The notes beneath the pieces are model-generated. The model was not told where the DNA came from and did not search any database. It worked only from the letters and a program-made list of their open reading frames with translations. This document shows positions 7,023 to 50,505 of a stretch of 64,000 bases of DNA, in pieces (position 1 is the first letter of the stretch; each line of letters begins with the position of its first letter). The translations under genes were made by a program, and so were the position numbers. This DNA comes from Bryobacteraceae bacterium (GTDB taxonomy: Bacteria > Acidobacteriota > Terriglobia > Bryobacterales > Bryobacteraceae), in assembly GCA_019748195.1 (NCBI GenBank), contig JAIEPW010000025.1, positions 1 through 64,000 of the forward strand. The letters are read 5' to 3'.

Positions 7023-8154
7023 GAATCCGGTCCTCTTTCAAAAATGGGGCCACTGCGTCCGCCGCCGCCGCCATGGGATCCTGCCTGGTTGCCAGCACGC
7101 GGGAGACCTCCCGCAAGTCCCGCCGCATGACCTCGCGGGCCTCGGGCGAGTCGAGCAGAGCTTGCAGCTCCTTTGCCAACCGCTCTCCGGTCATCTCGTC
7201 CTGCATCACTTCCTCGACAATCCGCTTCCGCGCCACCAGGTTGACCATGGACAGAAACGGCGTCCGCACCAGCCTGCGGCCTACTTTCCAAGTTAACGCG
7301 TTTACCCGGTAAAACGTGATCAGCGGCGTTCCCAGCAGCGCGGCTTCGATAGTTACCGTCCCACTGGCCGCAAGCGCCACGTCACAATGGGCCAGCAAAT
7401 CCCAGGTAAGCCCTTCAATGCGTTGGATGGACGCGGCGGTAAGGGGTTCCGAAAATCTTTCCGCCCGGACGCCCGCGGGCAGGCCCAAGACCCATTGAAC
7501 CCCGCTCCCGATCCGCTCCGCTGCCTGGATGAGGTGAGGCAAATGACGCTGGATCTCCCCTTTCCGGCTTCCCGGAAGCAAAGCCACCACGGGACGCCCC
7601 GGCTCCAGACCCGCCTTTTCGAAGAATTGCTCCCGCGTGAGGCTCGGACGGACCGTTCTGGTCAGAGGATGCCCTATGTAGTCGGCTGCGACGCCGCGGT
7701 CGCGGAACCACTTCTCTTCGAAAGGGAAAATGCAGAGCAGCCGGTCTACCACCTTGCGGATGGTCTTCACTCGCCCCTGCCGCCAGGCCCAAACCTGGGG
7801 CGCGATGAGGTAGACGACCGGCACACCCATTCGTTTCAGCCTCCCGGCCAGGCGGAGGTGAAAATCGGGGCTGTCGGTTAGGATCGCCAGGTCCGGCTTC
7901 TCCCGTTCCGCGGCGGCGATCAGCTTGTCGAATTCGCCCTTGATCCGCGGCAAATGGGAGATCACTTCCACCAGGCCGACCACGCCCAGGCTGGCGGCGT
8001 CTACCACCATGCGGACGCCGGCCTCGCGCAGTTTCGGCCCCGCGCACCCGAAAAAGTCCGCGCCGGGGTAGCGGCGGCGAAGTTCGTGAACCAGTTGGGA
8101 GGCGTAGAAATCGCCGGAGGCTTCCCCGGCGGAGACAAGAATCTTGCTGGCCAC
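7012..8154 (-). CDS. lpxB: Lipid-A-disaccharide synthase
   Basis: Glycosyltransferase family 19 enzyme that joins UDP-2,3-diacylglucosamine and lipid X to form the lipid A disaccharide, on the inner face of the inner membrane. The 380-residue length fits the family. Diagnostic segments are the N-terminal LVSAGEASGDFYAS, FFGCAGPKLREAG, DSPDFHLRLAG, YLIAPQVWAWRQGRVK and LPGSRKGEI, followed by SGTVTIEAALLGTPLITFY. No other lpx gene is in the window, so it is detached from the usual lpxD-fabZ-lpxA cluster here. It implies an outer membrane with lipid A. Confidence 0.96.
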   Translation of the reverse strand: MASKILVSAGEASGDFYASQLVHELRRRYPGADFFGCAGPKLREAGVRMVVDAASLGVVGLVEVISHLPRIKGEFDKLIAAAEREKPDLAILTDSPDFHLRLAGRLKRMGVPVVYLIAPQVWAWRQGRVKTIRKVVDRLLCIFPFEEKWFRDRGVAADYIGHPLTRTVRPSLTREQFFEKAGLEPGRPVVALLPGSRKGEIQRHLPHLIQAAERIGSGVQWVLGLPAGVRAERFSEPLTAASIQRIEGLTWDLLAHCDVALAASGTVTIEAALLGTPLITFYRVNALTWKVGRRLVRTPFLSMVNLVARKRIVEEVMQDEMTGERLAKELQALLDSPEAREVMRRDLREVSRVLATRQDPMAAAADAVAPFLKEDRIHVS

Positions 8155-8191
8155 GTGACTTCAGTTTAGAGTACGCGCCGGCCAGGCGGGC

Positions 8192-8842
8192 TTACTTTCC
8201 CATCTTGAGCTTCATCGCTGCGCCGGCCCGCTCCAGCAGCCCCTTTCGAAGCTCCACCAGCCGGGCGCCCTGGGCGCCTTCCTGGATCAGATCCGCCGCG
8301 GCCACTCCGTGCGGCGCCAGATCCTCCAAATAGATGATCATCAGCTCATTCCGCTTGCTTTCGTCCAGGTGCACCAGCCGCTGGAACACCGCTTCCGTGG
8401 GCAGTTTCAGGCCCTTCGCCGCCACCAGCTTGCGCATCCATTCGCCATCGGACCCGGCGCGCTGCCGCGCCGCCGATTCGGCGGTGGAAACCCGGGTGTC
8501 CGCGTAAAACTCCACGCCCGATACCGTTGCCCGCCCGCTCGCGCTGTAGTTGTAAGTGTTGTTGTTGGCCGGCAGATAGCCTTCGAACTGCAGCCAGATG
8601 AGGCGCTTCACAACGCCCGCGGGACTCGCTTCCGCGAAGAAGTGCTGTTCCGCGTCGGCGACCCCGTACAAGTTGAACCGCTGGCCGCCCAGGTAGCGGA
8701 ACTCCTTGCCGATTTCAATCCTGATCTCGGGGTTGCGCGCCGAGGTCACCACCTGGCCCTCCACCTTCCGTTCCGGAGGCGGCATCTCCTGTGCGGTGAG
8801 AAGCGAGGCGAGGGCCAGGCAGCCCCAGATGCGGAGAGTCAT
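8192..8842 (-). CDS. Hypothetical exported protein
   Basis: I do not recognise this 216-residue protein. It begins with a clear signal peptide (MTLRIWGCLALASLLTAQE). The middle has a beta-rich part with GGQRFNLYGVADAEQHFF and LIWLQFEGYLPANNNTYNYS, followed by a helical C-terminal half with ELMIIYLEDLAPHGVAAADL. It sits 37 bases upstream of lpxB on the same strand and may share its transcript, but nothing ties it to lipid A. Confidence 0.65.
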   Translation of the reverse strand: MTLRIWGCLALASLLTAQEMPPPERKVEGQVVTSARNPEIRIEIGKEFRYLGGQRFNLYGVADAEQHFFAEASPAGVVKRLIWLQFEGYLPANNNTYNYSASGRATVSGVEFYADTRVSTAESAARQRAGSDGEWMRKLVAAKGLKLPTEAVFQRLVHLDESKRNELMIIYLEDLAPHGVAAADLIQEGAQGARLVELRKGLLERAGAAMKLKMGK

Positions 8843-8881
8843 GTAGGCAAGTACGCGCCACCCCGCCGCCCGTTACGCCTT

Positions 8882-9274
8882 TTACTTCGTTTTCGTGAGT
8901 CCGTGACCCCCCACGGGCGTCGTAATGGTCCTGGCGCCGAATCCCGCCAGCATCGGCCTGGCAGCGGCGATAGCTTTTTGGACGGACGGAATCTTCAGCG
9001 ATGCCGCGTGGCTGTCCGCGCTGTCCCAAACTTCGGTGATCCAGATCGTGTTCTCTTCCGCCGGGTCCTTGGCGACCACGTAGCTGAGGCATCCCGGCAT
9101 GCCGGAAATACCTTCGAGCAGGATCGCGATCAGCGCGTCACGCTGCCCCGCGGTGGCGGTCATGCTGCCGATGATTCCATACATGCGCGCTTCCTCCAAC
9201 GGTTCGGACCGCCCCAGGGCGGCCGCGAGTGAAATGCCGACGCTTCCCATCAGTTCGCGGCGTCCTATTCCCAT
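8882..9274 (-). CDS. Exported antibiotic biosynthesis monooxygenase (ABM)-domain protein
   Basis: A 130-residue protein with a twin-arginine-like leader (GRRELMGSVGISLAAAL, residues 4-20), then a dimeric ferredoxin-like alpha+beta barrel of the YgiN/ABM type: YGIIGSMTATAGQRDALIAI, PGCLSYVVAKDPAEENTIWI, EVWDSADSHAASLKIPSVQK. Proteins of this fold include cofactor-free quinol oxygenases and haem-degrading enzymes; the substrate here is unknown. The predicted export is unusual for the fold, since most ABM proteins are cytoplasmic. Divergent from the permease gene at 9338. Confidence 0.75.
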   Translation of the reverse strand: MGIGRRELMGSVGISLAAALGRSEPLEEARMYGIIGSMTATAGQRDALIAILLEGISGMPGCLSYVVAKDPAEENTIWITEVWDSADSHAASLKIPSVQKAIAAARPMLAGFGARTITTPVGGHGLTKTK

Positions 9275-11841: not shown

Positions 11842-12606
11842 ATGTCCGCTCAACCTGACCTCTCAAAACTTAGCCTGACGCAGTTCGCCGAACGCTTTCG
11901 CGGCGAAATGATCCCGCTGAGCAGCCAGTTCTCTTACTTCTGCGCTTCCGTACCCATGAGCGAGGAGGAGTTGAAGGAGTATCTCGAGGAGCCCGTTGCC
12001 GCGCTGCCTCCCAGCATTGCCGAAGCACTGCCGAAAATCGCCATCTTCCTGGTCCCCTATCTGGAAAAGAGCGACAGCGCCGAGCCTTCCGAGTTCATCG
12101 CGGTGGAGCGCCCCCCGGACAACCGCTCCTCGCTCAATTCCCAGGTCCGGCTCGGAAACGAGACGGTGCTCGCGTTTGCGCTGAAGGGGCAGGAGGTCGC
12201 CGAATATCACTACCGCTTCTATAATCGCCTGGCGACGCTCATCGGCGAGAATTGGACCGAGGAAGTGGAGTCCGCCTACTCCCGGCTGGTGCGCGAGGAA
12301 CTGAACGGCGAAGTCCACGGCGAAGTAGACGAAGCCTCCTGGCGCCTGAAGCAGTCCATCCGCCGGGGCAAGGCGGCGAAGAAGGACAGCAAGGCGTTTC
12401 GCGAATACGCGCGGCAATCCTTCATCGATACGCTGACCCTGTATCTGCACGGCATCTGCTGCGATATCGACGTGGAAACCGGGCCTCGCCAGTTGGCCAG
12501 CCGCTATCTGCGCCGGCGCCTGCAGGTGATCCGCGGGCTGTACCCGCCGCCCAAGGGCTACGCCGTATTCCCCGAAGAGCTCAAGAACGCGGACCGGCCG
12601 GACTAG
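11842..12606 (+). CDS. Hypothetical cytoplasmic protein
   Basis: I do not recognise this 254-residue protein. It is soluble, acidic in its first half (EEELKEYLEEPVAALPPS) and basic in the second (SIRRGKAAKKDSKAF, RYLRRRLQVIRGLYPPP), with no signal peptide or membrane segment. LAFALKGQEVAEYHYRFYNR and FIDTLTLYLHGICCDIDVE suggest mostly helical structure. It ends three bases before the stop codon of the convergent purF gene, so the two transcripts must overlap. Confidence 0.65.
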   Translation: MSAQPDLSKLSLTQFAERFRGEMIPLSSQFSYFCASVPMSEEELKEYLEEPVAALPPSIAEALPKIAIFLVPYLEKSDSAEPSEFIAVERPPDNRSSLNSQVRLGNETVLAFALKGQEVAEYHYRFYNRLATLIGENWTEEVESAYSRLVREELNGEVHGEVDEASWRLKQSIRRGKAAKKDSKAFREYARQSFIDTLTLYLHGICCDIDVETGPRQLASRYLRRRLQVIRGLYPPPKGYAVFPEELKNADRPD

Positions 12607-12609
12607 GCT

Positions 12610-14019
12610 TCAACGTCTGGTTTCCGCCGCCACGGCTTCAATCTGCACCAGCGGCGTCGGATAGTCCCCGGTGTAGCACGCGTAGCAGTAATTGCGGTCG
12701 CGATCTTCCACCGAACGCTTCAGATTGTCCATCGACAGATAGGCGAGGGAGTCGGCTTCCACGAACTCGCGAATGCCGTCCACGGTATGGTTCGCCGCGA
12801 TCAGTTCGTTCTTCGAAGGCGTATCGACACCGTAAAAGCAGGGCGAAATCGTCGGCGGGCAGGAGATCCGCAGGTGAACCTCCTTGGCGCCCGCCGCGCG
12901 AACCATGCGCACGATCTTGCGCGAAGTGGTGCCGCGGACAATCGAATCGTCCACCAGAACCACGCGCTTGCCTTCCAGCAGGTGCCGCACCGGATTCAGC
13001 TTCAGCTTCACTCCGAAATCGCGGATCGCCTGCGAGGGTTCGATGAACGTCCGGCCAACGTAATGATTGCGGATTAACCCGTGCCGGAACGGGATGCCGG
13101 ATTCGAAGGCGTAGCCGATCGCCGCCGCCACCCCGGAGTCCGGCACCGGAACCACCACATCGGCGTCCACCGGCGATTCGTGCGCCAGCAGGCGGCCCAT
13201 CGTTTCGCGCGAAAGCTGCACCGAACGCCCGAACACCACCGAATCCGGACGCGAGAAATACACGTGCTCGAAGACGCAGTGCGAAGACTGCCGCCGCGGC
13301 GCGTACCGCTCCCGCGTCAGCCCTTCCGGCCCCGCCATCACCATTTCCCCGGGCTCCACGTCCCCGGTGTAGCGCGCGCCGATCAAATCGAAAGCGCAGG
13401 TCTCCGACGCGAACACGTAAGCCTTCGCTCCGTGCGGCAAGTCCAGCTCGCCCATCGCCAGCGGACGGAACCCGTGAGGATCCCGGGCGACAATCACTCG
13501 CTGCTCCGCCAGAAACACCAGCGAAAACGCGCCTTCTATCTCCAGCAGCGCCTCCCGCAGCGCTCCGGCGATGGTGCGTTCCCGCGATTTCGCCACCAGG
13601 TGCAGGATTACCTCGGTGTCGGAGGAGGCCTGGAAAATCGATCCCTCCGCCTCCAGCAGCCGGCGAAGCTCATTGGCGTTGGTCAGATTGCCGTTATGCG
13701 CCAGCGCGATCGCGCCCTTGTTGCATCGGACCGAAAACGGCTGAGCGTTCAGCAGGACCGTCTCGCCCGCCGTGGAGTAACGCGTATGCCCGATGGCCAA
13801 TTCGCCCGGAAGCTGATTCAGAACCGCGGGAGTGAAGATGTCGGCCACATGGCCCATCCCCTTGTGGCTGTATACCTCGCGGCGATCGCTGGAAGAAATT
13901 CCGGCGCTCTCCTGGCCGCGATGCTGCAACGCATAAAGTCCCAGGTACGCGAGGTTGGCGGCCTCGGGATGGCCGTAAATGGCGAACACGCCGCATTCCT
14001 CGTGAAACTTATCGAACAT
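12610..14019 (-). CDS. purF: Amidophosphoribosyltransferase
   Basis: Catalyses the first committed step of purine synthesis, PRPP plus glutamine to 5-phosphoribosylamine. It is 469 residues long. The propeptide MFDKFHEE precedes the N-terminal nucleophile Cys9 ([12 protein letters not shown]), so the enzyme is probably of the self-processing, iron-sulphur Bacillus type. [11 protein letters not shown] follows. The PRPP-binding loop is [19 protein letters not shown], and C-terminal cysteines ([10 protein letters not shown]) plus an upstream ISCPP fit [4Fe-4S] ligands. The start overlaps the end of purL by 11 bases, so translational coupling is likely. Confidence 0.97.
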
Positions 14020-41034: not shown

Positions 41035-43608
41035 CTACTCAGTTCTATCCCAGCCCCACTTCAGGAGCGAATGACACGGCCGGGTGAGCGGATCGTCGTA
41101 GTGATTGGGGCTGATCCGCACGGAGTAGCCCAACAGGCCCGTGTTCGAAAGCGGAAACTCTCTTCCAAAGACGTAAACGGAGCCGTGTTGTTCGGCCGCA
41201 TCTAAGGTGAGCACCTGAGTTTCCTCCAGATTTCCGTTGACGCCGACGCGTCCCACCACGGCTTCCACCCGGACATCCTGGGGCGTGAGCCCCGCGAGAT
41301 CGACCACAGCGCGCAACGGAATGGTAGATCCGCTCTTCATCTCCCGCTCGGGCGCAGGTCCTACCTGAAGGAAGCTCACATTAGGCCAGCGCTGCGTTAC
41401 CTCGCGATCCCAGTGCGCGCGGTTGCGCGCTTCCCTGAAATCGTCCTTGGAAATTTCCTGAAAGCCGGCCAGAGCAGGGTCGTACAACTCGCGGCGGTAT
41501 TCGTCCACCATGCGCTGGCAATTGAACTGGGAGCTGACCTCTTTCAACGACGTTTTGACGCGGCGAATCCAGGCGTGGGGTACACCTTTGTCGCGTTCCT
41601 CGTAGTAAAGCGGGACGACCTCGTTTTCAAGGAGCGAGTACAGCGAAAGCGCGTGGACCTCGTCCTGATCGGAACCATAACCCTCGCGATCACCGATGGC
41701 CCATCCGCCCACGTTGGAAGCGGCCTCGTCGAACCATCCGTCGAGCACGCTGAGATTCAATCCGCCGTTCAGGCCGGCCTTCATGCCGCTGGTGCCGCAA
41801 GCCTCTTCCAGCCGCCGGGGCGTATTCAGCCACAGATCGCAGGCTTGCACCATCTCACGGGCGATATGAATTCCGTAGTCTTCCAGGAAAATAACGTGAT
41901 TTGCCAGTTCCGGATCGCGCGAGTACTGCACGATCTGCTGGATCAACGTCTTGCCGGGCAGATCCTTGGGGTGGGCCTTGCCCGCGATGATGATCTGTAC
42001 GGGCCGCCCGGGATTGGTGAGGATGCGCCGCAGGCGGTCCAGATCGCGGAACAGCAGGGTGGCGCGCTTGTAGGTGGCGAACCGACGCGCGAAACCGATG
42101 GTCAGGGCCTCGGGGTCGAAGATCTCGTTCAACCGCCGGACTTCAATGGCGGGCGCGTTGCGCCGGGTGGCGTTGAACACGGCGTGGTGCCGCACGAAAT
42201 TCACCAAACGCCGCTTTCGCGTGCGCTTCACTTCCCACAGCTCCTGGTTGGGGATTTCTTCGACGGCGTCCCAAACACCGGGAGCGGCGTGCTCTTCGCG
42301 CCAATCCGGCTGCAAGTAGCGATCGTAGAGTTTGGCCAGGTCGGCGCTGATCCAGGTGGGCAGATGAACGCCGTTGGTGACGGACGTGATCGGCACCTCC
42401 CACACGGGAAGCCGCGGCCAGAGGTTCTGCCACAGTTCCTGCGACACCGCCCGGTGCAGCCGGCTGACGGCGTTGCGCAGCGCCGAGGTTTTCAGCGCCA
42501 GCACGGCCATCGAGAAATGCCCGTCGCGGCCGTTGTGACCGAGGAGCAGAAATTCTTCCAGCGAGATTCCGGCGTCGCGGCAGTAATCGGCGAAGAACTC
42601 CTGCATCAGCGAAAGGTCGAACACGTCGATTCCGGCAGGGACGGACGTATGGGTGGTGAAGATGTTGTTGGTGCGGGACGCCGTCAACGCCTCTTCCATG
42701 CTCAAGCCGTGTTCCGCCATCAGCAGGCGAATGCGTTCGATCGCCAGGAACGCGGAGTGGCCCTCGTTCATGTGATAGACGGCCGGTTGGATGCCAAGCT
42801 GTTTCAGCGCCCGCAAGCCGCCGATTCCGAGCACGATCTCCTGGCGCATCCGGGTGTAGGCATCACCGCCGTACAAATGATCCGTGATGTCGCGATGCAA
42901 CGGATTCTCATTGTCCGGGATGTTGGTGTCCAGCAGGTACAACTGCACCCGGCCGACGTTGATATGCCACACCTTGACCGCGACCGAGCCGGTGGGCAGC
43001 GACACATGGACAATCACTTCCCTGCCGTCCTTGTCGTGGACGGGCGACACTGGAAGCGAATAGAAGTCGTTCACCGGGTTGCGCTCCTGCTGCCAGCCGT
43101 CGGGATTCAGCGACTGCTGCAGGTAACCGCGCTGATAAAGCAGCCCGACCCCCACCAACGGGATCCTGGCGTCGCTCGCCGACTTCAGATGATCGCCGGA
43201 GAGCACTCCCAGGCCACCCGAATAGATCGGCATGCAATCCAGCAGGCCGTACTCCATGGAGAAGTAGGCCACCAGGCGATCGCGGCGCGGCTGCGCGCTC
43301 ATGTAGTCGTCATAGCGCTCGCAGGCACGTTTGTAGAAGGCAAGGTAGCGCGGGTCGGCCGCGGCGCGTTCCAGTGTCTCCTGCGGAACGCGGCCCAGCA
43401 TCAGCACCGGGTTGTGGTTCGTCGCTTCCCACAAGTTCTGGTCCAACCGCCAGAACAACGAGCGAACGACGTAATCCCAGCTCCAGAGCAGATTAAAGGC
43501 CAGCTCGGAAAGACGCTCGATGGGAGGGGGGAGTCCGGGCCGGACCAAGAACTCCTGTTGGGGAATAATCTGGAAGGACATTCGAAGAATCGGCTGCTGG
43601 GCGCTCAC
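41035..43608 (-). CDS. glgP: Alpha-glucan (glycogen) phosphorylase
   Basis: An 857-residue GT35 phosphorylase of the long archaeal/bacterial type, with the N-terminal DUF3417-like region (RLSELAFNLLWSWD). FSMEYGLLDCMPIYSGGLGVLSGD, HMNEGHSAFLAIERI and EACGTSGMKAGLNG (with the PLP-binding Lys) are intact. It releases glucose 1-phosphate from glycogen or maltodextrins. The C-terminal 110 residues form an extra beta domain ending LLGYSVRISPNHYDD. An in-frame ATG at 43581 is an alternative start. Divergent from egtB. Confidence 0.94.
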   Translation of the reverse strand: MSAQQPILRMSFQIIPQQEFLVRPGLPPPIERLSELAFNLLWSWDYVVRSLFWRLDQNLWEATNHNPVLMLGRVPQETLERAAADPRYLAFYKRACERYDDYMSAQPRRDRLVAYFSMEYGLLDCMPIYSGGLGVLSGDHLKSASDARIPLVGVGLLYQRGYLQQSLNPDGWQQERNPVNDFYSLPVSPVHDKDGREVIVHVSLPTGSVAVKVWHINVGRVQLYLLDTNIPDNENPLHRDITDHLYGGDAYTRMRQEIVLGIGGLRALKQLGIQPAVYHMNEGHSAFLAIERIRLLMAEHGLSMEEALTASRTNNIFTTHTSVPAGIDVFDLSLMQEFFADYCRDAGISLEEFLLLGHNGRDGHFSMAVLALKTSALRNAVSRLHRAVSQELWQNLWPRLPVWEVPITSVTNGVHLPTWISADLAKLYDRYLQPDWREEHAAPGVWDAVEEIPNQELWEVKRTRKRRLVNFVRHHAVFNATRRNAPAIEVRRLNEIFDPEALTIGFARRFATYKRATLLFRDLDRLRRILTNPGRPVQIIIAGKAHPKDLPGKTLIQQIVQYSRDPELANHVIFLEDYGIHIAREMVQACDLWLNTPRRLEEACGTSGMKAGLNGGLNLSVLDGWFDEAASNVGGWAIGDREGYGSDQDEVHALSLYSLLENEVVPLYYEERDKGVPHAWIRRVKTSLKEVSSQFNCQRMVDEYRRELYDPALAGFQEISKDDFREARNRAHWDREVTQRWPNVSFLQVGPAPEREMKSGSTIPLRAVVDLAGLTPQDVRVEAVVGRVGVNGNLEETQVLTLDAAEQHGSVYVFGREFPLSNTGLLGYSVRISPNHYDDPLTRPCHSLLKWGWDRTE

Positions 43609-43736
43609 AAGGCCGTCCCAACATTCCTACAATAACAGACAGAAGTCGCCAGCGTACGGGCCGCATCCTGGGCGGGGTCGCCGTCATCAGAAACTGCGGA
43701 GCTGGAGTACGTGCCAGATGCCGGATCGCGAGCAAG

Positions 43737-44939
43737 ATGACTCCTACGTACCCCACACTCCTGTCTGCCGCCCCTGCCCGAGCCGCTCGCCTGGCCGTTG
43801 TGCGGTCCCGCACGGATGACCTGTTCGATCTCATTTCCGAACGCGTTCTGCTGGAGCGTCCCGTTCCGGAACGTCACCGCCTGATCTTCTACCTGGGACA
43901 CCTGGAAGCCTTTGACTGGAACCTGATGTGCCGCCGGGGCTTGGGTTTGGAGTCGTTTCATGCTGAGTTCGACCGGCTGTTCGAGTTCGGAATCGATCCG
44001 CCCAAGGGACAACAGCCGGTGGACATGCCGTCCGATTGGCCTGCCGTTGAATTCGTCTGCAAATACAACGCCAAAGTCCGGCAGCTAATCGACGATGTGC
44101 TGGACCGTGTGCCGGACCCGCTGTTCGATGTCGCGGTGGAACACCGTCTGATGCACGCGGAGACACTTTGCTATCTACTGCACAACCTCGCCTTGGGGTT
44201 GAAGCGTAAACCCGTGGATGTGTCGTATCGCACAACGGGCGCCGTTCCCGTCGCGGAGTGGAGGACGGTGCCCGGCGGCATTGCCACCCTCGGCAAGCGA
44301 CGGAGTGAAGGCTTCGGCTGGGACAACGAGTTCCCTGAGCGCCTGGTCCAGGTGCCGGAGTTCACCATTCGCCGCCATAAGATCACCAACGCGGAGTATC
44401 TGGAGTTCGTCGACGCGGGCAATCCCGCGCCGCGCTTCTGGACCCGCCGGGACGGACAGTGGTTCTGGCGCGGCATGTTCGAGGAAATCCCGCTGCCTCT
44501 GAACTGGCCTGTCTGGACCACGCAGGAGCAGGCTTCGCGATTCGCGGCGTGGAAGGGGGCTCGGCTACCCACGGAAGCGGAATATCACCGCGCGGCCGAG
44601 GGCAGCCCGACGCTGATACCGGCCCGGTCGGCCGATTTCGCCACATGGGATCCCATTCCCGTGGACGCGGAAGCGGAAACCAGCAGCGCACACGGAGTCG
44701 AGCAACTGGCCGGCAACGGCTGGGAATGGACCGAGACCGTCTTCGGCCCTTTCCCCGGCTTCGAGCCGTTCTCCTTTTATCCCGGCTATTCAGCCGATTT
44801 TTTCGATGAGGCACACTACGTCATGAAGGGAGCATCGCCGCGCACGGCCGCCTGCTTCCTTCGCCGGAGTTTCCGGAACTGGTTCCGCACCGACTACCCA
44901 TACGCGTTCGCCGGGTTCCGCCTGGCGAAGGCGGATTGA
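43737..44939 (+). CDS. egtB: EgtB-type sulfoxide synthase (ergothioneine biosynthesis)
   Basis: A 400-residue protein with an N-terminal DinB_2 domain (about 20-160) and a C-terminal formylglycine-generating-enzyme-like domain (175-400). The iron-binding His residues fit EgtB: His55 in YLGHLEAFDW, and His136 and His140 in EHRLMHAETL, spaced as in characterised EgtB. The second domain shows RRHKITNAEYLEFVDAG, LPTEAEYHRAAEG, NGWEWTETVFGPFPGFEPF and the FRNWFRTDYPYAFAGFR ending. It should join a cysteine or gamma-glutamylcysteine sulphur to hercynine with O2. Followed after 12 bases by egtD. Confidence 0.85.
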   Translation: MTPTYPTLLSAAPARAARLAVVRSRTDDLFDLISERVLLERPVPERHRLIFYLGHLEAFDWNLMCRRGLGLESFHAEFDRLFEFGIDPPKGQQPVDMPSDWPAVEFVCKYNAKVRQLIDDVLDRVPDPLFDVAVEHRLMHAETLCYLLHNLALGLKRKPVDVSYRTTGAVPVAEWRTVPGGIATLGKRRSEGFGWDNEFPERLVQVPEFTIRRHKITNAEYLEFVDAGNPAPRFWTRRDGQWFWRGMFEEIPLPLNWPVWTTQEQASRFAAWKGARLPTEAEYHRAAEGSPTLIPARSADFATWDPIPVDAEAETSSAHGVEQLAGNGWEWTETVFGPFPGFEPFSFYPGYSADFFDEAHYVMKGASPRTAACFLRRSFRNWFRTDYPYAFAGFRLAKAD

Positions 44940-44951
44940 AGAGGGTGATTC

Positions 44952-45869
44952 ATGGACAACGATTTCGCCGCGGCCGTGCGCCACGGCTTGAGCAAACCGC
45001 GGAAAGAGCTACCGTCGCGCTTTCTCTACGACGACCTGGGGACTGCGCTGTTTGAAGCCATCACGCATCTGCCTGAGTACGGTCTTACGAGGGCGGACGA
45101 AGGCTTGCTGTGCGGCCTCGCGACCGAGCTTCCATCCTCCTTCCGGCTGGTGGTGGAACTCGGCAGCGGCACGGGATCGAAAACAAGGCCGGTGCTGAAG
45201 GCGTTGTCGCGCGGCGGGGAGGTTCGCTACTCGCCGGTGGACGTATCGGCGGCGGCGCTGGCGAAGTGCCGCCGCGAGCTGGGCGAAATCGCGGAGATCA
45301 CGCCGCTGCGGGATTCGTATCTGGCGGGTCTGGAACAGGCGCGCCGAACCCGCCGCCGGAGCGAGCCGATTCTGGTTCTCTTTCTCGGAAGCACGATCGG
45401 CAATTTCGATCCCGCATGCCGCCAGGACTTCCTGCGCGGCGTTCGCGCGCAACTGGAACCGGGAGACGCGCTGCTGATCGGATTCGACCTGGTGAAGCCG
45501 GTGGAGCAATTGCTCGCCGCGTACGACGATCCCACCGGGGTTACGGCGGCGTTCAATCGCAACCTGCTGGGGAGGGTGAATCGCGAGCTGGGCGGCACGT
45601 TCCGGCTGGAGCACTTTGCTCATGAGGCTCGCTACGACGCGCGGGAACAGCGGATCGAAATGCACTTGCGATCCCAGGCGCGCGAGACGGTGCACGCTGC
45701 CGGCATGGAATTCGCCTTTGAGCGAGGCGAGACGATCTGGACCGAGTCCTCGTACAAGTTCCAGCTCGAGCAGACGCTGCGTCTCGCGACGGAATGCGGC
45801 TTCCGGCCTGAATGCCACTGGGTGGACGAGGAGTGGCCATTTGCGGAATGCTATTGGAGCGCGGAGTAA
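44952..45869 (+). CDS. egtD: L-histidine N-alpha-methyltransferase
   Basis: A 305-residue SAM-dependent enzyme that trimethylates histidine to hercynine. RFLYDDLGTALFEAITHLPEYG, in two parts, with TRADEGLL, the SAM site VVELGSGTGSKTRPVL, VLFLGSTIGNFDP and GDALLIGFDLVKP, and ENE-like spacing match the EgtD/methyltransf_33 family. It is directly downstream of egtB and three bases upstream of the ABC ATPase gene, so hercynine synthesis and the transporter are probably expressed together. No egtA, egtC or egtE is seen nearby. Confidence 0.93.
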   Translation: MDNDFAAAVRHGLSKPRKELPSRFLYDDLGTALFEAITHLPEYGLTRADEGLLCGLATELPSSFRLVVELGSGTGSKTRPVLKALSRGGEVRYSPVDVSAAALAKCRRELGEIAEITPLRDSYLAGLEQARRTRRRSEPILVLFLGSTIGNFDPACRQDFLRGVRAQLEPGDALLIGFDLVKPVEQLLAAYDDPTGVTAAFNRNLLGRVNRELGGTFRLEHFAHEARYDAREQRIEMHLRSQARETVHAAGMEFAFERGETIWTESSYKFQLEQTLRLATECGFRPECHWVDEEWPFAECYWSAE

Positions 45870-45872
45870 TTG

Positions 45873-46604
45873 ATGGCGGATCCCTTCCTGGAGTTTCGGA
45901 CCGTATCGTTTCACGCGGGCGGCCGCGCGATCCTGGACCGGTTGGACTTGAGGGTGGCGCAAGGGGAGGTGCTGGTGCTGCTGGGCCGCAGCGGATCGGG
46001 CAAGACCACCGCGCTGAAGCTGGCGAACGCTTTGCTGATGCCGTCCGGCGGCGAAGTGATGGTGGAAGGGCGGTCGACCAGGCAATGGAATGCGATCGAG
46101 TTGCGCCGCCGGACCGGCTACGTGATCCAGGAGACCGGCCTATTGCCGCACCTTACGGTGGGCGAAAATGTCGGGCTGGTGCCGCGGATCCGCGGCGCGG
46201 AAGCGAACCCGGAACGCATACGCGGCCTGCTGGACCTGGTAGGGCTTCCCGCGGAGTTCGCCGGGAGATATCCCCGGCAGTTATCCGGCGGGCAGCGGCA
46301 GCGAGCGGGCGTCGCGCGAGCACTTGCGGCCGATCCGCGGCTGCTACTGTTCGACGAGCCGTTCGGCGCGCTCGATCCCGTGACGCGTTTCGAGTTGCAG
46401 AACGAGTTCCGCGCCCTGCAGCAACGGCTGAGGAAGACCGCGATTTTTGTCACGCACGACCTGCGCGAGGCGCTGCGGCTGGGCGATCGGATCGCGCTGC
46501 TGCACAACGGCCGGTTGGAAGTGAATTGCGCGGCCGCGGAGTTCCGGCACGCCGCCACCCCGGAAGCCTCGGCGTTTCTGGCCGCGTTCCGAGGGGACAT
46601 CTGA
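45873..46604 (+). CDS. ABC transporter ATPase, quaternary-amine (OpuC/EgtV) type
   Basis: A 243-residue ATPase with Walker A LLGRSGSGKTTALKLAN, Q-loop VIQETGLLPHLTVGENVGLV (typical of the OpuCA/ProV family), signature LSGGQRQRAGVARAL, Walker B LLLFDEPFGALDPVTR and the H-loop VTHDLREALRLGD. It has no CBS domains, which in OpuA/OpuC ATPases sense ionic strength, so osmoregulatory gating is unlikely. It begins three bases after egtD and one base before the permease. Confidence 0.93.
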   Translation: MADPFLEFRTVSFHAGGRAILDRLDLRVAQGEVLVLLGRSGSGKTTALKLANALLMPSGGEVMVEGRSTRQWNAIELRRRTGYVIQETGLLPHLTVGENVGLVPRIRGAEANPERIRGLLDLVGLPAEFAGRYPRQLSGGQRQRAGVARALAADPRLLLFDEPFGALDPVTRFELQNEFRALQQRLRKTAIFVTHDLREALRLGDRIALLHNGRLEVNCAAAEFRHAATPEASAFLAAFRGDI

Positions 46605-46605
46605 A

Positions 46606-47220
46606 ATGCGGGAGGGTCTTGCGTCCACTGTGCTGCGCCTTTCGGGCGAACACTTGCTGTTGGTGCTGGTGGCTGTAACCGCGGGGGTGCTGATCGCCGT
46701 ACCGGCCGGCGTCTTCCTGACGCGGCGCGAATCCTGGCGAGCGCCCCTGCTGCTGGCTGCCAACGTGGTGCAGACGATCCCCAGCCTGGCTCTTTTCGGG
46801 TTCCTGATTCCCGTGCCTTTTATTGGCGGCATCGGGAAGGGAACGGCGCTGGTCGCGCTGATTCTTTATGCGCTGCTGCCGATTCTGAGAAACACGCTGG
46901 CCGGCATTCTCGCGGTGGATGCCGCGGTTCGCGAATCGGCGGTTGCGATGGGGATGACGGACGGGCAGCTCTTGCGGATCGTGGAGTTGCCGCTGGCGGC
47001 TCGCACCATCCTGGCGGGCGTGCGGATCGCCGCGGTGACCACCGTGGGAACTGCTACCATTGCGGCGGCGGTGGGCGGCGGCGGACTGGGCGATCTGATC
47101 TTCCGCGGGATCGCGACCGTGGACACAACGCTGATCCTGGCCGGCGCGCTGCCGGCCGCGGGGCTCGCGCTGGCCATCGATGGAGGGCTGGGTTGGATCG
47201 AAGGCAGATTCTCGCGGTAG
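46606..47220 (+). CDS. ABC transporter permease, quaternary-amine (OpuCB/EgtU) type
   Basis: A 204-residue inner-membrane protein with about six helices: LLLVLVAVTAGVLIAVPAGV, then NVVQTIPSLALFGFLIPVPF and the EAA loop AVRESAVAMGMTDGQLLRIV with LPLAARTILAGVRIAAV. The IPSLALFGFLIPV and GxGTxxVALILYALLPILRN patterns are those of betaine/choline/carnitine importers. The substrate-binding protein is encoded separately, unlike EgtU, which is fused. Its end overlaps the binding-protein gene by 28 bases. Confidence 0.93.
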   Translation: MREGLASTVLRLSGEHLLLVLVAVTAGVLIAVPAGVFLTRRESWRAPLLLAANVVQTIPSLALFGFLIPVPFIGGIGKGTALVALILYALLPILRNTLAGILAVDAAVRESAVAMGMTDGQLLRIVELPLAARTILAGVRIAAVTTVGTATIAAAVGGGGLGDLIFRGIATVDTTLILAGALPAAGLALAIDGGLGWIEGRFSR

Positions 47221-48050
47221 CTTTGGGGCTCGCCGGTTGTGGAGGCGGGCAGCGGGTGCGCGTAGGCTCGAAGAACTTCACCGAACAGTTGATCCTGGGT
47301 GAACTGCTGGCGCTGCAGGTGGAGCGCAAGACCGGCCGGGAAGTGTCGCGCCGGCTGAACCTGGGCGGAACGCTGGTGGCCACCAAGGCCCTGCAGAGCG
47401 GCTCCCTCGATCTTTATCCGGAGTACACCGGAACGGCGCTATCGGCGGTGCTGAAGGAAGATCTGGCGGGCGATGCCCGCGCAATTCTGGCCCGGGTCCG
47501 CGAGGCGTATCGCGAGCAGTACGCCATCGAGTGGCTCGATCCCCTGGGGATCGACAACACCTTCGCCATGGTGGTGCGCGGCGAGGACGCGCGGAAGCTC
47601 GGGCTGAAAACCTTGAGCGACGCGGCGCGCGTGAAGAACTTCTGGAAGCTCGGCGCCGGCTACGAGTTCCAGGAGCGGCGCGACGGCCTGCCCGCGCTGG
47701 CCCCCTACGCCATCGCCTGGGCGTCGCCGGTGCGGACCATGGATCTGGGGCTGCTCTACACCGCCCTGGAACAACAGCAGGTGAATATCGCCGCGGGAAG
47801 CGCCACGGACGGGCTGCTGGCGGCGCGCGACTTCGTGGTGCTGGAAGACGATCGCCGCGTGTTTCCCGCCTACGAAGCCTGTGTCGCGGCGCGTCTGGAT
47901 GCGCTAGCCGCGAATCCCGGCTTGCGGGAAGCGCTTTCGGCTCTTTCGGGAAAGCTGTCGAACGAAACGATGCGGCGGCTGAACCTGGAAGTCGACGGCA
48001 AGCATCGCGACCCGGCGCAGGTGGCGCGCGAGTTCGCGGAATCCTTGTGA
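47193..48050 (+). CDS. Glycine betaine/ergothioneine-type substrate-binding lipoprotein
   Basis: A 285-residue protein from TTG 47193, placed after GGAGGG. The leader ends in a lipobox-like LAGC, so it should be a lipoprotein in the periplasm. The binding core has VGSKNFTEQLILGELLALQ, LNLGGTLVATKALQSGSLD and LYPEYTGTALS, typical of OpuAC/EgtU-like domains, then ATDGLLAARDFVVLEDDRRVFPAYE. Ligands of this fold carry a quaternary ammonium. With egtB-egtD upstream, ergothioneine or hercynine is the first candidate; glycine betaine is the alternative. Confidence 0.88.
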   Translation: MDRRQILAVALGLAGCGGGQRVRVGSKNFTEQLILGELLALQVERKTGREVSRRLNLGGTLVATKALQSGSLDLYPEYTGTALSAVLKEDLAGDARAILARVREAYREQYAIEWLDPLGIDNTFAMVVRGEDARKLGLKTLSDAARVKNFWKLGAGYEFQERRDGLPALAPYAIAWASPVRTMDLGLLYTALEQQQVNIAAGSATDGLLAARDFVVLEDDRRVFPAYEACVAARLDALAANPGLREALSALSGKLSNETMRRLNLEVDGKHRDPAQVAREFAESL

Positions 48051-48069
48051 CGGCGTTTATCCTGTAACA

Positions 48070-49029
48070 ATGCCGTTGTTCGATATGGTTGGCGTGGGCC
48101 TGAACGCGACCGACACGCTGCTGATCCTGGAGAAGTTTCCCGCCTACGCCGGCAAGGTCCCGTTTCTCGATGAGATCCTGAGCCCCGGCGGGCAGGTGGC
48201 CAGCGCGGTAATCACCGGCGCACGGCTTGGACTGCGCGCCAAGTACATCGGCACCGTCGGCGATGACCATCGCGGCGTGATCCAGCTCGACAGCCTGAAG
48301 GCCAGCGGCGTCGACATCTCCGACGTGCAAATCCGGAAGAACTGCGCGAATCAGAGCGCCTACATTCTCATTGACCAGACGACGGGCGAACGTACTGTAT
48401 TATGGCGGCGTCCGGAATGTCTGCGATTGCAGCCGGAAGCCATCGCCGAGGAAAAGATCGCCTGCGCGCGCCTGCTGCACATCGACGGGCATGACACCCC
48501 GGCCGTCGCCAAGGCGGCAGGCATCGCCCGGAAGCACAACATTCCGGTGACGGTGGACGTGGACACGATCTATCACGGCTTCGAGCAGGTGCTGCCCAAC
48601 GTCGATTACCTGATCGCGTCCAGCGAGTTTCCGGGCCAGTGGACCAGCGAGCGCGATCCCATCAAGGCGCTGGCGATGATTCAGGAGGAGTACGGATTAC
48701 GCGTGGCCGCGATGACCCTGGGAGCGCACGGGGCGCTGGCGCGGAGTGAAGGCCGCTACCATTATTCGCCCGCGTTCGTTGTCAACTGCGTGGACACCAC
48801 GGGAGCGGGCGACGTATTTCATGGAGCGTTTTGCTACTCCGTCCTCGCCGGGATGCCGGTGGCGGAGGCGCTGGAGTTCTCAAACGCGATGGCCGCGCTC
48901 AACTGCACCGCATTAGGGGCGCGCGGCCGCATCGCGACCATCGCGGAAGCCCAATCGTTGATCGAGCGGGGGGAACGGCGTACGCACCGGGAGTTCGCGG
49001 CGGCGAGTTCAGCAGCCCGGCCTGTTTGA
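48070..49029 (+). CDS. PfkB/ribokinase family carbohydrate kinase
   Basis: A 319-residue kinase with the PfkB layout: VGLNATDTLLILEKFP near the N-terminus, SPGGQVASAVITGARLG, and the ATP-site signature DTTGAGDVFHGAFCYSVLAG with the catalytic Asp. The substrate may be ribose, a fructose phosphate or a nucleoside. It is 19 bases downstream of the transporter's binding protein, so transcript sharing is possible, but the biochemical link to ergothioneine is not obvious. Confidence 0.88.
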   Translation: MPLFDMVGVGLNATDTLLILEKFPAYAGKVPFLDEILSPGGQVASAVITGARLGLRAKYIGTVGDDHRGVIQLDSLKASGVDISDVQIRKNCANQSAYILIDQTTGERTVLWRRPECLRLQPEAIAEEKIACARLLHIDGHDTPAVAKAAGIARKHNIPVTVDVDTIYHGFEQVLPNVDYLIASSEFPGQWTSERDPIKALAMIQEEYGLRVAAMTLGAHGALARSEGRYHYSPAFVVNCVDTTGAGDVFHGAFCYSVLAGMPVAEALEFSNAMAALNCTALGARGRIATIAEAQSLIERGERRTHREFAAASSAARPV

Positions 49030-49176
49030 TGAACCCGTGGTTGATGGACCCGGGAAATTCTGGAGACTTATCTTTCGTCTTACTCCGTCATCCTTCCCGC
49101 CCCACACGACGATGTTTGTTAAGGTGACGCAACTTGCTCCACGGCTGCGAGACGGTTGCACCGCGCGCCCCGGCAA

Positions 49177-50505
49177 ATGACAAACGGAGACGGCCGGCGG
49201 CAGATGGACCGGACCAACATGGTCGAAGTGAATGCCCTCACGGTGCTTGTAGTGGAGGACGAGCCGGTGGTCGGCTCGCTGATCCAGACCACCTTAACCG
49301 GACTCGGGCACAAACCACTGCTGGTGCGCACGGGGGCAGACGCGCTGGAAGCCGCTGAGAAGTCGCGGCCCGATGTCGTGTTAATGGACATTGAGCTTGA
49401 AGGCGAGATGGACGGCATCGAGACGGCCGCGCGCCTGAAGGAACGTCTTTCGCAGCCCGTAGTCTATCTAACCGGCGAATCCGATCCGCGCACCGTGGAG
49501 CGCGCGATGTCCACCGACCCTTACGGATACGTCGTGAAACCCTTCACGACGGATGGGTTGCGAAGCGCTCTGCAGATCGCGCGACTAAAGCAAGGTTTCG
49601 CGCCGCGGCGCCCGGACCGGCAGGCATCGTATCTTGCGGTATTGGAGAAACTGAACGAAGGTGTCCTGCTGATGGATTTGCGGCAGCGGGTGACGATGCT
49701 GAACGCCGAGGCGCAGAGGCTCACCGGATGGAAGCTCGCCGAGAGCCTGGGGCAGCCCGCGCAACGTATTCTGCCCCTGGCCGCTGACGACGGGGCGTCG
49801 CTTGCCGATCTTTGTGACCGGGCACAGTCGTCCGGCGACTCGCTCAGTTTCGGCGTCTCCGGGGTAATTCAGGTAAGAGGCGGATCGGAACGGCGGGTGC
49901 ATGGCAGCCTCAGCCTGCTGCGGGAGGACTCAGGAGCCGCCAACGCGTATGCCATCACGTTTGAGGAACGTACGCAGCAGGAATTCGAGACTCCAGACGT
50001 GCTACCGGGCGGCGCCCCGGAGAACCGGGCCATTCCCGCCGTCCGGGCGACACGAGTCGAGTTGCTGCGGCGTAACGCGCTGAATGCGATTGAGAAACGC
50101 ATCCAGGAGCAGGTTCGCTCCTTCGCCGTACTGGTGATTCTGAATCAGTTTCCGACGTTCCACCGCCGCTACGGCTCAGCGGCCGCGGAGAAGCTGCTCA
50201 ACGTCTACACCGCGCATCTGCTGAGCCACATCGTGCCGCCGGATCAACTTCTGCAATGGAACGAAGGCAGCAATCTACTGCTGCTGGACCGCCAGGCTGC
50301 CTACGATGTCGTCCGCAACGAAGTCACGACCCTTTGCAGCCGGCGGATCGATTACTACCTCTACGCCAAGGATCGCAGCGCGCTGGTCAGCCTGAGCGTG
50401 CAATGGGCGCTGTTTCCGATTCTGGAAGCAAGTTCCGCGCAGGGCCTGGCGGAGCAATTCGACGCGATGTCGCTTCCCCTGGACTCGCGGCTGGCGCGAA
50501 GGTAG
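49177..50505 (+). CDS. Response regulator with PAS domain and eroded GGDEF domain
   Basis: The receiver domain is complete: VLVVEDEPVVG, phospho-acceptor Asp in VVLMDIELEGEMDG, YLTGES, and the Lys in YVVKPFTT. A PAS-like domain follows (YLAVLEKLNEGVLLMDLRQR, RLTGWKLAES). The C-terminal 150 residues fold like a diguanylate cyclase (VLVILNQFPTFHRRYGSAAAEKLLN parts), but where GGDEF should stand there is NEGSN (QWNEGSNLLLLD), so no cyclase activity is expected. The start is uncertain; ATGs at 49204 and 49219 would also keep the receiver domain intact. Confidence 0.83.
   Translation: MTNGDGRRQMDRTNMVEVNALTVLVVEDEPVVGSLIQTTLTGLGHKPLLVRTGADALEAAEKSRPDVVLMDIELEGEMDGIETAARLKERLSQPVVYLTGESDPRTVERAMSTDPYGYVVKPFTTDGLRSALQIARLKQGFAPRRPDRQASYLAVLEKLNEGVLLMDLRQRVTMLNAEAQRLTGWKLAESLGQPAQRILPLAADDGASLADLCDRAQSSGDSLSFGVSGVIQVRGGSERRVHGSLSLLREDSGAANAYAITFEERTQQEFETPDVLPGGAPENRAIPAVRATRVELLRRNALNAIEKRIQEQVRSFAVLVILNQFPTFHRRYGSAAAEKLLNVYTAHLLSHIVPPDQLLQWNEGSNLLLLDRQAAYDVVRNEVTTLCSRRIDYYLYAKDRSALVSLSVQWALFPILEASSAQGLAEQFDAMSLPLDSRLARR

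Follow-up and report, generated by a model that had tools for sequence, protein, structure and literature searches.

An OpuC/ProX-group ABC importer adjoining egtB and egtD in Bryobacteraceae and relatives, with a possible role in uptake of ergothioneine or hercynine

The closest described counterparts of the system considered here are the EgtU importers (EgtUABC in Streptococcus pneumoniae, EgtUV in Helicobacter pylori), which combine an OpuAC-type binding domain with a permease and an ATPase, and the glycine betaine and choline binding proteins AfProX, OpuBC and OpuCC of cluster F-III. EgtU is described in Firmicutes that are unable to make ergothioneine, and the S. pneumoniae protein prefers ergothioneine over hercynine by orders of magnitude (PMC9732360). 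The same study finds that S. pneumoniae EgtU touches the carboxylate and imidazole of ergothioneine through K242, T296, E375 and R379; G244 and F293 are given as specificity residues of all EgtUs, and the G244F substitution weakens ergothioneine binding ~100-fold (PMC9732360). Here, we describe a locus in 64,000 nucleotides of DNA from a Bryobacteraceae bacterium (the window: assembly GCA_019748195.1, contig JAIEPW010000025.1, positions 1 to 64,000 of the forward strand), in which egtB and egtD are followed by the three genes of an ATP-binding cassette (ABC) importer, encoding an ATPase, a permease and a substrate-binding protein (SBP) that is a predicted lipoprotein (Table 1).

The five genes are co-directional, with junctions of 12, 3, 1 and -28 bases, and Pfam finds each expected domain of the five proteins above its cut-off, including a 178.5-bit match of the SBP to PF04069 (OpuAC). 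Both this layout and the lack of CBS domains in the ATPase had been given in a preliminary description of the locus, and the coordinates and Pfam bear them out; the ATPase open reading frame (ORF) also has an in-frame TTG at 45870. From the sequences, we think it probable that these genes serve both the synthesis and the import of a histidine betaine, allowing a producer to recapture or take up ergothioneine or hercynine. EgtD would trimethylate histidine to hercynine, EgtB, which is most like EgtB-IV, would join the sulfur of a thiol amino acid to hercynine with O2, and a final pyridoxal phosphate (PLP) C-S lyase would free ergothioneine. The lipoprotein would then take ergothioneine (or hercynine) in the periplasm for import by the permease and ATPase, so that the cell could recapture leaked compound and take up what its neighbours release.

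To see how the locus is arranged elsewhere, we searched 61 genomes (the window's own, of 5.83 Mb in 154 contigs, and 60 relatives) for the SBP and EgtD, and mapped the fetched contigs by tblastn. A second scan of genome contigs, mapped in the same way, supplied the best 80 loci of 591 relatives; five loci that repeated genomes already included (L089, L091, L100, L107 and L117) were dropped. Across both sets, the order egtB-egtD-ATPase-permease-SBP is found in 12 relatives (L037, L041, L042, L043, L044, L047, L088, L094, L101, L103, L112 and L140), among them a Nitrospira metagenome-assembled genome (L101) and a locus whose egtB is broken by a contig end (L112). Two more (L038 and L125) show egtD-ATPase-permease-SBP up to a contig end inside egtD, of which L125 retains ~68 residues. 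The junction between egtD and the ATPase gene is conserved in relatives, and because the arrangement recurs in many of them, it goes beyond chance. Elsewhere the same genes are paired differently: the transporter precedes egtB-egtD in eight loci (L039, L092, L104, L106, L129, where only egtB is seen, L130, L150 and L167), the two sets diverge in seven (L108, with only egtD seen, L109, L120, L139, L146, L148 and L159, with only egtB seen), and they converge in four Nitrospirota loci (L096, L097, L099 and L111). Given the conserved order and the four arrangements of the pairing, a single unit with a role in ergothioneine or hercynine metabolism, as had been proposed for the window, seems the best reading.

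We then counted a transporter as linked if EgtB or EgtD lay within 1.8 kb, taking non-duplicate loci with an SBP match of at least 220 bits and not counting the window itself. By this measure 32 of 94 loci are linked, as are 20 of the 48 with long flanks (no less than 5 kb on the upstream side and 4.5 kb on the downstream side), and L125, with its EgtD fragment at a contig end, makes a 33rd; EgtB is present on 30 of the 32. When ORFs within 5 kb were clustered, EgtB/EgtD ranked as the top non-transporter neighbour (32/94 loci), followed by a gene found in 9/94; a 25-locus cluster in this ranking consists, judging by the positions inspected, of antisense ORFs of the same genes. Among 50 genomes whose transporter looks unlinked (loci from the best-80 set), 41 encode an EgtD of at least 150 bits elsewhere. 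Likewise, in the 61 genomes, EgtD (at least 100 bits) occurs in 16 of 19 with an SBP of at least 240 bits versus 15 of 42 others (Fisher p 0.0007, with bit thresholds picked after the search and kinship uncorrected). Unlike EgtU, then, the window-type transporter resides mostly in genomes that carry egtD. Since the linkage is recurrent, EgtB/EgtD lead the neighbour ranking and EgtD is encoded elsewhere in most unlinked cases, we conclude that the transporter has a functional link with the ergothioneine pathway.

A tree of 110 proteins, built by a quick maximum-likelihood method, places 102 rows, including the window's SBP, apart from SpEgtUC, 4z7e, AfProX and 8dp6, with a Shimodaira-Hasegawa-like approximate likelihood ratio (SH-aLRT) of 97, a quick-method support on a tree with long reference branches. 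The SBP thus falls outside the EgtU and AfProX references, in a comparison that leaves aside OpuBC, OpuCC and the engineered sensor 7s7w. The arrangements are scattered over this tree, requiring 10 changes for the co-directional order, 4 for the reverse, 3 for the divergent and 1 for the convergent, of which the starred branches force at least 6, 3, 3 and 1, respectively; for this reason, we infer that the link to egtBD was kept or remade repeatedly. The preliminary description had envisaged a split EgtU-like permease and binding protein. The split is real, as the two are separate ORFs in the window and fused in EgtU, whereas the likeness to EgtU holds neither in the tree nor in the specificity residues. 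By its sequence, the importer represents a lineage of its own within the OpuC/ProX group, not an EgtU.

The nearest solved relatives of the SBP by sequence are acetylcholine and nicotine sensors, which we take to be engineered from a choline-type protein, and OpuC-type proteins, followed by H. pylori EgtU (8dp6, 132.3 bits), with OpuBC, S. pneumoniae EgtU and AfProX lower in the ranking. We also compared an AlphaFold2 model of the SBP (mean predicted local distance difference test score, pLDDT, 93.6) with solved structures using VIA-align. Z values of 31 to 36 are reached by OpuC-type, EgtU and ProX structures alike, and 36 PDB entries exceed Z 31; the EgtU structures 8dp6 and 7txk reach Z 34.2 and 32.2 (root-mean-square deviation 1.9 and 3.7), and AfProX, OpuBC and OpuCC Z 31 to 35. 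As the rival classes score alike, the fold cannot decide the ligand, and we dropped any assignment from fold alone; nor does the sequence reveal the ligand.

Residues K242, G244, F293, T296, N339, Y341, E375, R379, Y419 and Y443 of S. pneumoniae EgtU correspond to K27, F29, Y78, T81, N122, F124, E158, R162, S203 and Y227 of the SBP. In all 33 linked proteins, the window's included, the equivalents of K242, T296, R379, E375 and Y443 are present (residue 375 being Glu as in S. pneumoniae, where H. pylori EgtU has Asp), together with Phe at 244, Tyr at 293, Phe at 341 and Asn or Ser at 419; position 339 holds Asn in 27 of them and Asp in the other 6. Neither G244 nor F293 is found in the SBP or in any of the 33. 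Only N122 and Y227 are retained from the EgtU aromatic cage (N339, Y341, Y419 and Y443), and set against the four-aromatic cage of cluster F-III, the SBP is aromatic at 293, 341 and 443, with Ser/Asn at 419, where some other residue might close the cage. This pattern differs from S. pneumoniae EgtU, AfProX and H. pylori EgtU alike. The 51 other proteins of the best-80 set match the linked proteins at the pocket positions, so the pocket is a feature of the clade as a whole; more variety is seen among the 20 unlinked proteins of the 61-genome set, several of them without the lysine or cage residues. This comparison left out L035, L058, L064 and L065, whose SBP matches are short or weak, and treated L111, linked in the tree and the linkage count, as unlinked. 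That Lys, Thr and Arg are retained speaks for a ligand that bears a carboxylate and against choline, and as AfProX has the carboxylate residues too, they are not specific to EgtU. The missing G244 and F293 are nevertheless compatible with ergothioneine, because H. pylori EgtU (8dp6; with ergothioneine, 8dp7), which has Ser and Tyr at these positions, lacks both.

The window's EgtD exceeds the NCBIfam egtD cut-off (TIGR03438: 295.2 versus 290.9 bits). Y56, N166, M252, E282 and S284 of mycobacterial EgtD are presumably the histidine-binding residues; the equivalents of the first four are kept in all 30 rows of the linked group whose match is sufficiently long, and at the S284 position 22 rows have S and 8 have C. 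EgtB keeps the three iron histidines noted in the preliminary description, as do 29 of 30 linked-group rows including its own (the 30th has a gap). Its closest solved relative is EgtB-IV (PDB 8vih, 200.7 bits), ahead of OvoA (136.0), EgtB 4x8b (107.6) and SenA (52.3). It passes no NCBIfam cut-off (OvoA N-terminal 200 bits against 400, EgtB equivalog 183.7 against 360, SenA 171.7 against 420). With these scores and EgtD adjacent, we rejected OvoA and SenA as its identity; selenoneine partner genes were not searched for. A second EgtB-EgtD pair (44% and 52% identical) lies on contig C70 of the window's genome, in a cluster that also encodes two cytochrome P460 family proteins, one bearing a cytochrome c domain.

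Several observations sit uneasily with a dedicated ergothioneine or hercynine importer. Complete egtB or egtD is missing from 62 of the 94 transporter loci, though many of these are short, and from 28 of the 48 with long flanks. Nine of the 50 genomes with an unlinked-looking transporter have no true EgtD, four with matches of only 36 to 47 bits and five with none; many of the genomes surveyed are drafts, so such absences are soft. Throughout the window's genome, models of EgtE and EgtC stay below their cut-offs, with matches like those in control genomes. In nine loci the transporter follows a coenzyme F420 gene block. In the pocket, Phe at 244 with Tyr at 293 is what AfProX, a glycine betaine protein, shows, and cage positions 341 and 419 are unlike all five reference chains aligned. 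Some of these points would suit a general importer of glycine betaine or other compatible solutes that came to adjoin egtBD, for instance through a common role of these genes in stress, as would the nearest solved relatives by sequence and fold, which are acetylcholine and nicotine sensors and OpuC/OpuBC-type proteins. We consider this unlikely: four egtBD arrangements scattered on the tree would need repeated attraction, the transporter co-occurs with egtD, and within cluster F-III the SBP departs from AfProX, the member compared residue by residue, in that two cage tyrosines are replaced (341 and 419). Mere adjacency by chance in one genome is contradicted by the order conserved in relatives and by the three other arrangements, and can be given hardly any weight.

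The substrate could instead be another trimethylated amino acid, either the precursor hercynine or, for some of the relatives, a compound made by another Methyltransf_33 enzyme. Distant Methyltransf_33 proteins do stand beside the transporter genes in L045, L083, L093 and L116, and L158 has a fragment of one where its contig ends (assigned by Pfam on L083 and by clustering on the rest); none of these loci gives an EgtB match. As the residues at EgtD Asn166, Met252 and Glu282 are gone from the first four, these proteins probably methylate another amino acid. The kept carboxylate residues, and the absence of those behind the preference of S. pneumoniae EgtU, fit such a substrate as well. However, EgtB accompanies nearly all linked transporters, so that the sulfur product is probably made there, and uptake of hercynine alone would leave the reductase and DinB neighbours described below unexplained; we regard this alternative as improbable, slightly more so than a general importer. 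The explanation we carry forward is that a producer recaptures or takes up ergothioneine or hercynine.

Other genes recur around the transporter in relatives, with each family name resting on a scan of one or several of its members, not of every locus (Table 1). In four loci, a flavin adenine dinucleotide (FAD) disulfide oxidoreductase above the NF004992 cut-off directly precedes egtB, and is a candidate for the enzyme that reduces oxidised ergothioneine. L095 has a glutathione-reductase-like gene, below that cut-off, ahead of the transporter, and on a Ligilactobacillus plasmid (L087) another comes after an EgtU-like transporter. Six loci have a Pyr_redox_2 (thioredoxin-reductase-like) protein with a cyclic-nucleotide (cNMP-binding) domain next to either egtBD or the transporter, its orientation varying among loci. 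In five, a DinB_2 protein overlaps the end of the SBP gene or starts within ~30 bases of it. DinB-fold proteins include mycothiol and bacillithiol transferases. The DinB_2 protein is thus a candidate thiol S-transferase for ergothioneine, an enzyme listed as unknown in a 2024 review (PMC10950700). Both the disulfide oxidoreductase and the DinB-fold neighbours fit a thiol substrate. The F420 blocks lie upstream of the transporter (L126, L128, L133, L134, L138, L144, L149, L152 and L161) and comprise CofD, F420 ligase, a radical SAM CofH-like protein and an F420-dependent oxidoreductase, identified by Pfam on L126 and by clustering elsewhere, with not all four everywhere.

Table 1. Positions of the genes in the window and of the features discussed in relatives
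Sequence	Feature	Positions	Strand	Remarks
Window	egtB, sulfoxide synthase-like	43737..44939	+	DinB_2 and FGE-sulfatase; iron histidines H55/H136/H140
Window	egtD, histidine N-alpha-methyltransferase	44952..45869	+	Methyltransf_33; Y43, N151, M237, E265, S267 match EgtD Y56, N166, M252, E282, S284
Window	ABC ATPase, 243 aa	45873..46604	+	ATG start; ABC_tran
Window	ABC permease, 204 aa	46606..47220	+	BPD_transp_1
Window	Substrate-binding lipoprotein (SBP), OpuAC-type	47193..48050	+	TTG start; 28-base overlap with permease
Window	Intergenic region, divergent glgP-like gene to egtB	43609..43736	.	sigma-70-like match at its start, 43604-43633
Window	Alpha-glucan phosphorylase (glgP-like) gene	41035-43608	-	Divergent, upstream of egtB
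Relatives	Flavin disulfide oxidoreductase (NF004992)	L066 (window's genome) 12528-13940; L094 2972-4363; L103 2907-4295; L106 6648-8033		Directly before egtB
Relatives	cNMP-domain reductase-like protein	L070 5639-7288; L092 4304-5953; L097 4906-6558; L099 4699-6336; L104 5788-7236; L106 10187-11893		
Relatives	DinB_2 protein	L123 8855-9442; L124 8804-9307; L147 1944-2519; L153 1075-1620; L155 8818-9396		
Relatives	Distant Methyltransf_33 protein	L045 3258-4208; L083 7104-8189; L093 5071-6021; L116 5472-6509; L158 2-391		L158: fragment, contig end
L066 (G000:C70)	Second egt cluster, window's genome	8446-15627	-	Two cytochrome P460 family proteins, flavin disulfide oxidoreductase, EgtB, EgtD, class I (E and Q) tRNA synthetase
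L035 (G000:C62)	OpuAC protein fragment, window's genome	6253-6501	+	In-frame stop
L048	Permease and binding protein in one ORF	7291-8970	-	Relative of same class
Relatives	Binding-protein-like genes adjoining a glgP-like gene	L054 8075-8857; L056 7807-8595; L059 7549-8349; L062 10717-11457		Relatives of the window's family

The genes flanking the five do not appear to belong with them. The preliminary description had named the PfkB gene, which starts 19 bases past the end of the SBP, as a possible member; tblastn at E 1e-5 gives no match to it on any of the 134 loci that were fetched and scanned (52 and 82), and we do not include it. We also rejected GlgP, as its gene adjoins egtB only in the window and in L047 (G008); elsewhere a glgP-like gene lies ~4 kb from the transporter in L156, with a partial match in L078. 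In four relatives of the window's family, a glgP-like gene adjoins binding-protein-like genes on loci with no permease match, possibly remnants or repurposed copies. Pattern searches of 43400-49300 found one sigma-70-like promoter, no better than the mean of 0.7 in shuffles, and six terminators versus 5.1 in shuffles.

Further transporter variants came up in the survey. The window's genome holds a second ATPase-permease-SBP set on contig C25 (62%, 65% and 49% identical) and an OpuAC fragment with an in-frame stop. In L048, the permease and binding protein are fused, as in EgtU. In L061 (G029), where the SBP match is below 220 bits and went uncounted, egtD and a distant egtB diverge from the transporter.

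Tentatively, and with less assurance than for the window's own genes, we suggest that Acidobacteriota and Nitrospirota may possess an additional lineage of ABC importers for ergothioneine (or hercynine), distinct from EgtU and different in the build of its binding site, that serves recapture in producers, with neighbouring genes supplying partners: the flavin disulfide oxidoreductase, the cNMP-domain thioredoxin-reductase-like protein and the DinB-fold S-transferase candidate. The pairing of egtBD with a transporter is not reported in the titles and abstract openings that we searched, many subscription papers being beyond reach. An importer tied to biosynthetic genes would contrast with EgtU, which was described in non-producers (PMC9732360). 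If this holds, producers in soil Acidobacteriota and Nitrospirota would recapture or share ergothioneine, and the lineage would offer another solution to binding this compound, as well as pointers to its redox partners.

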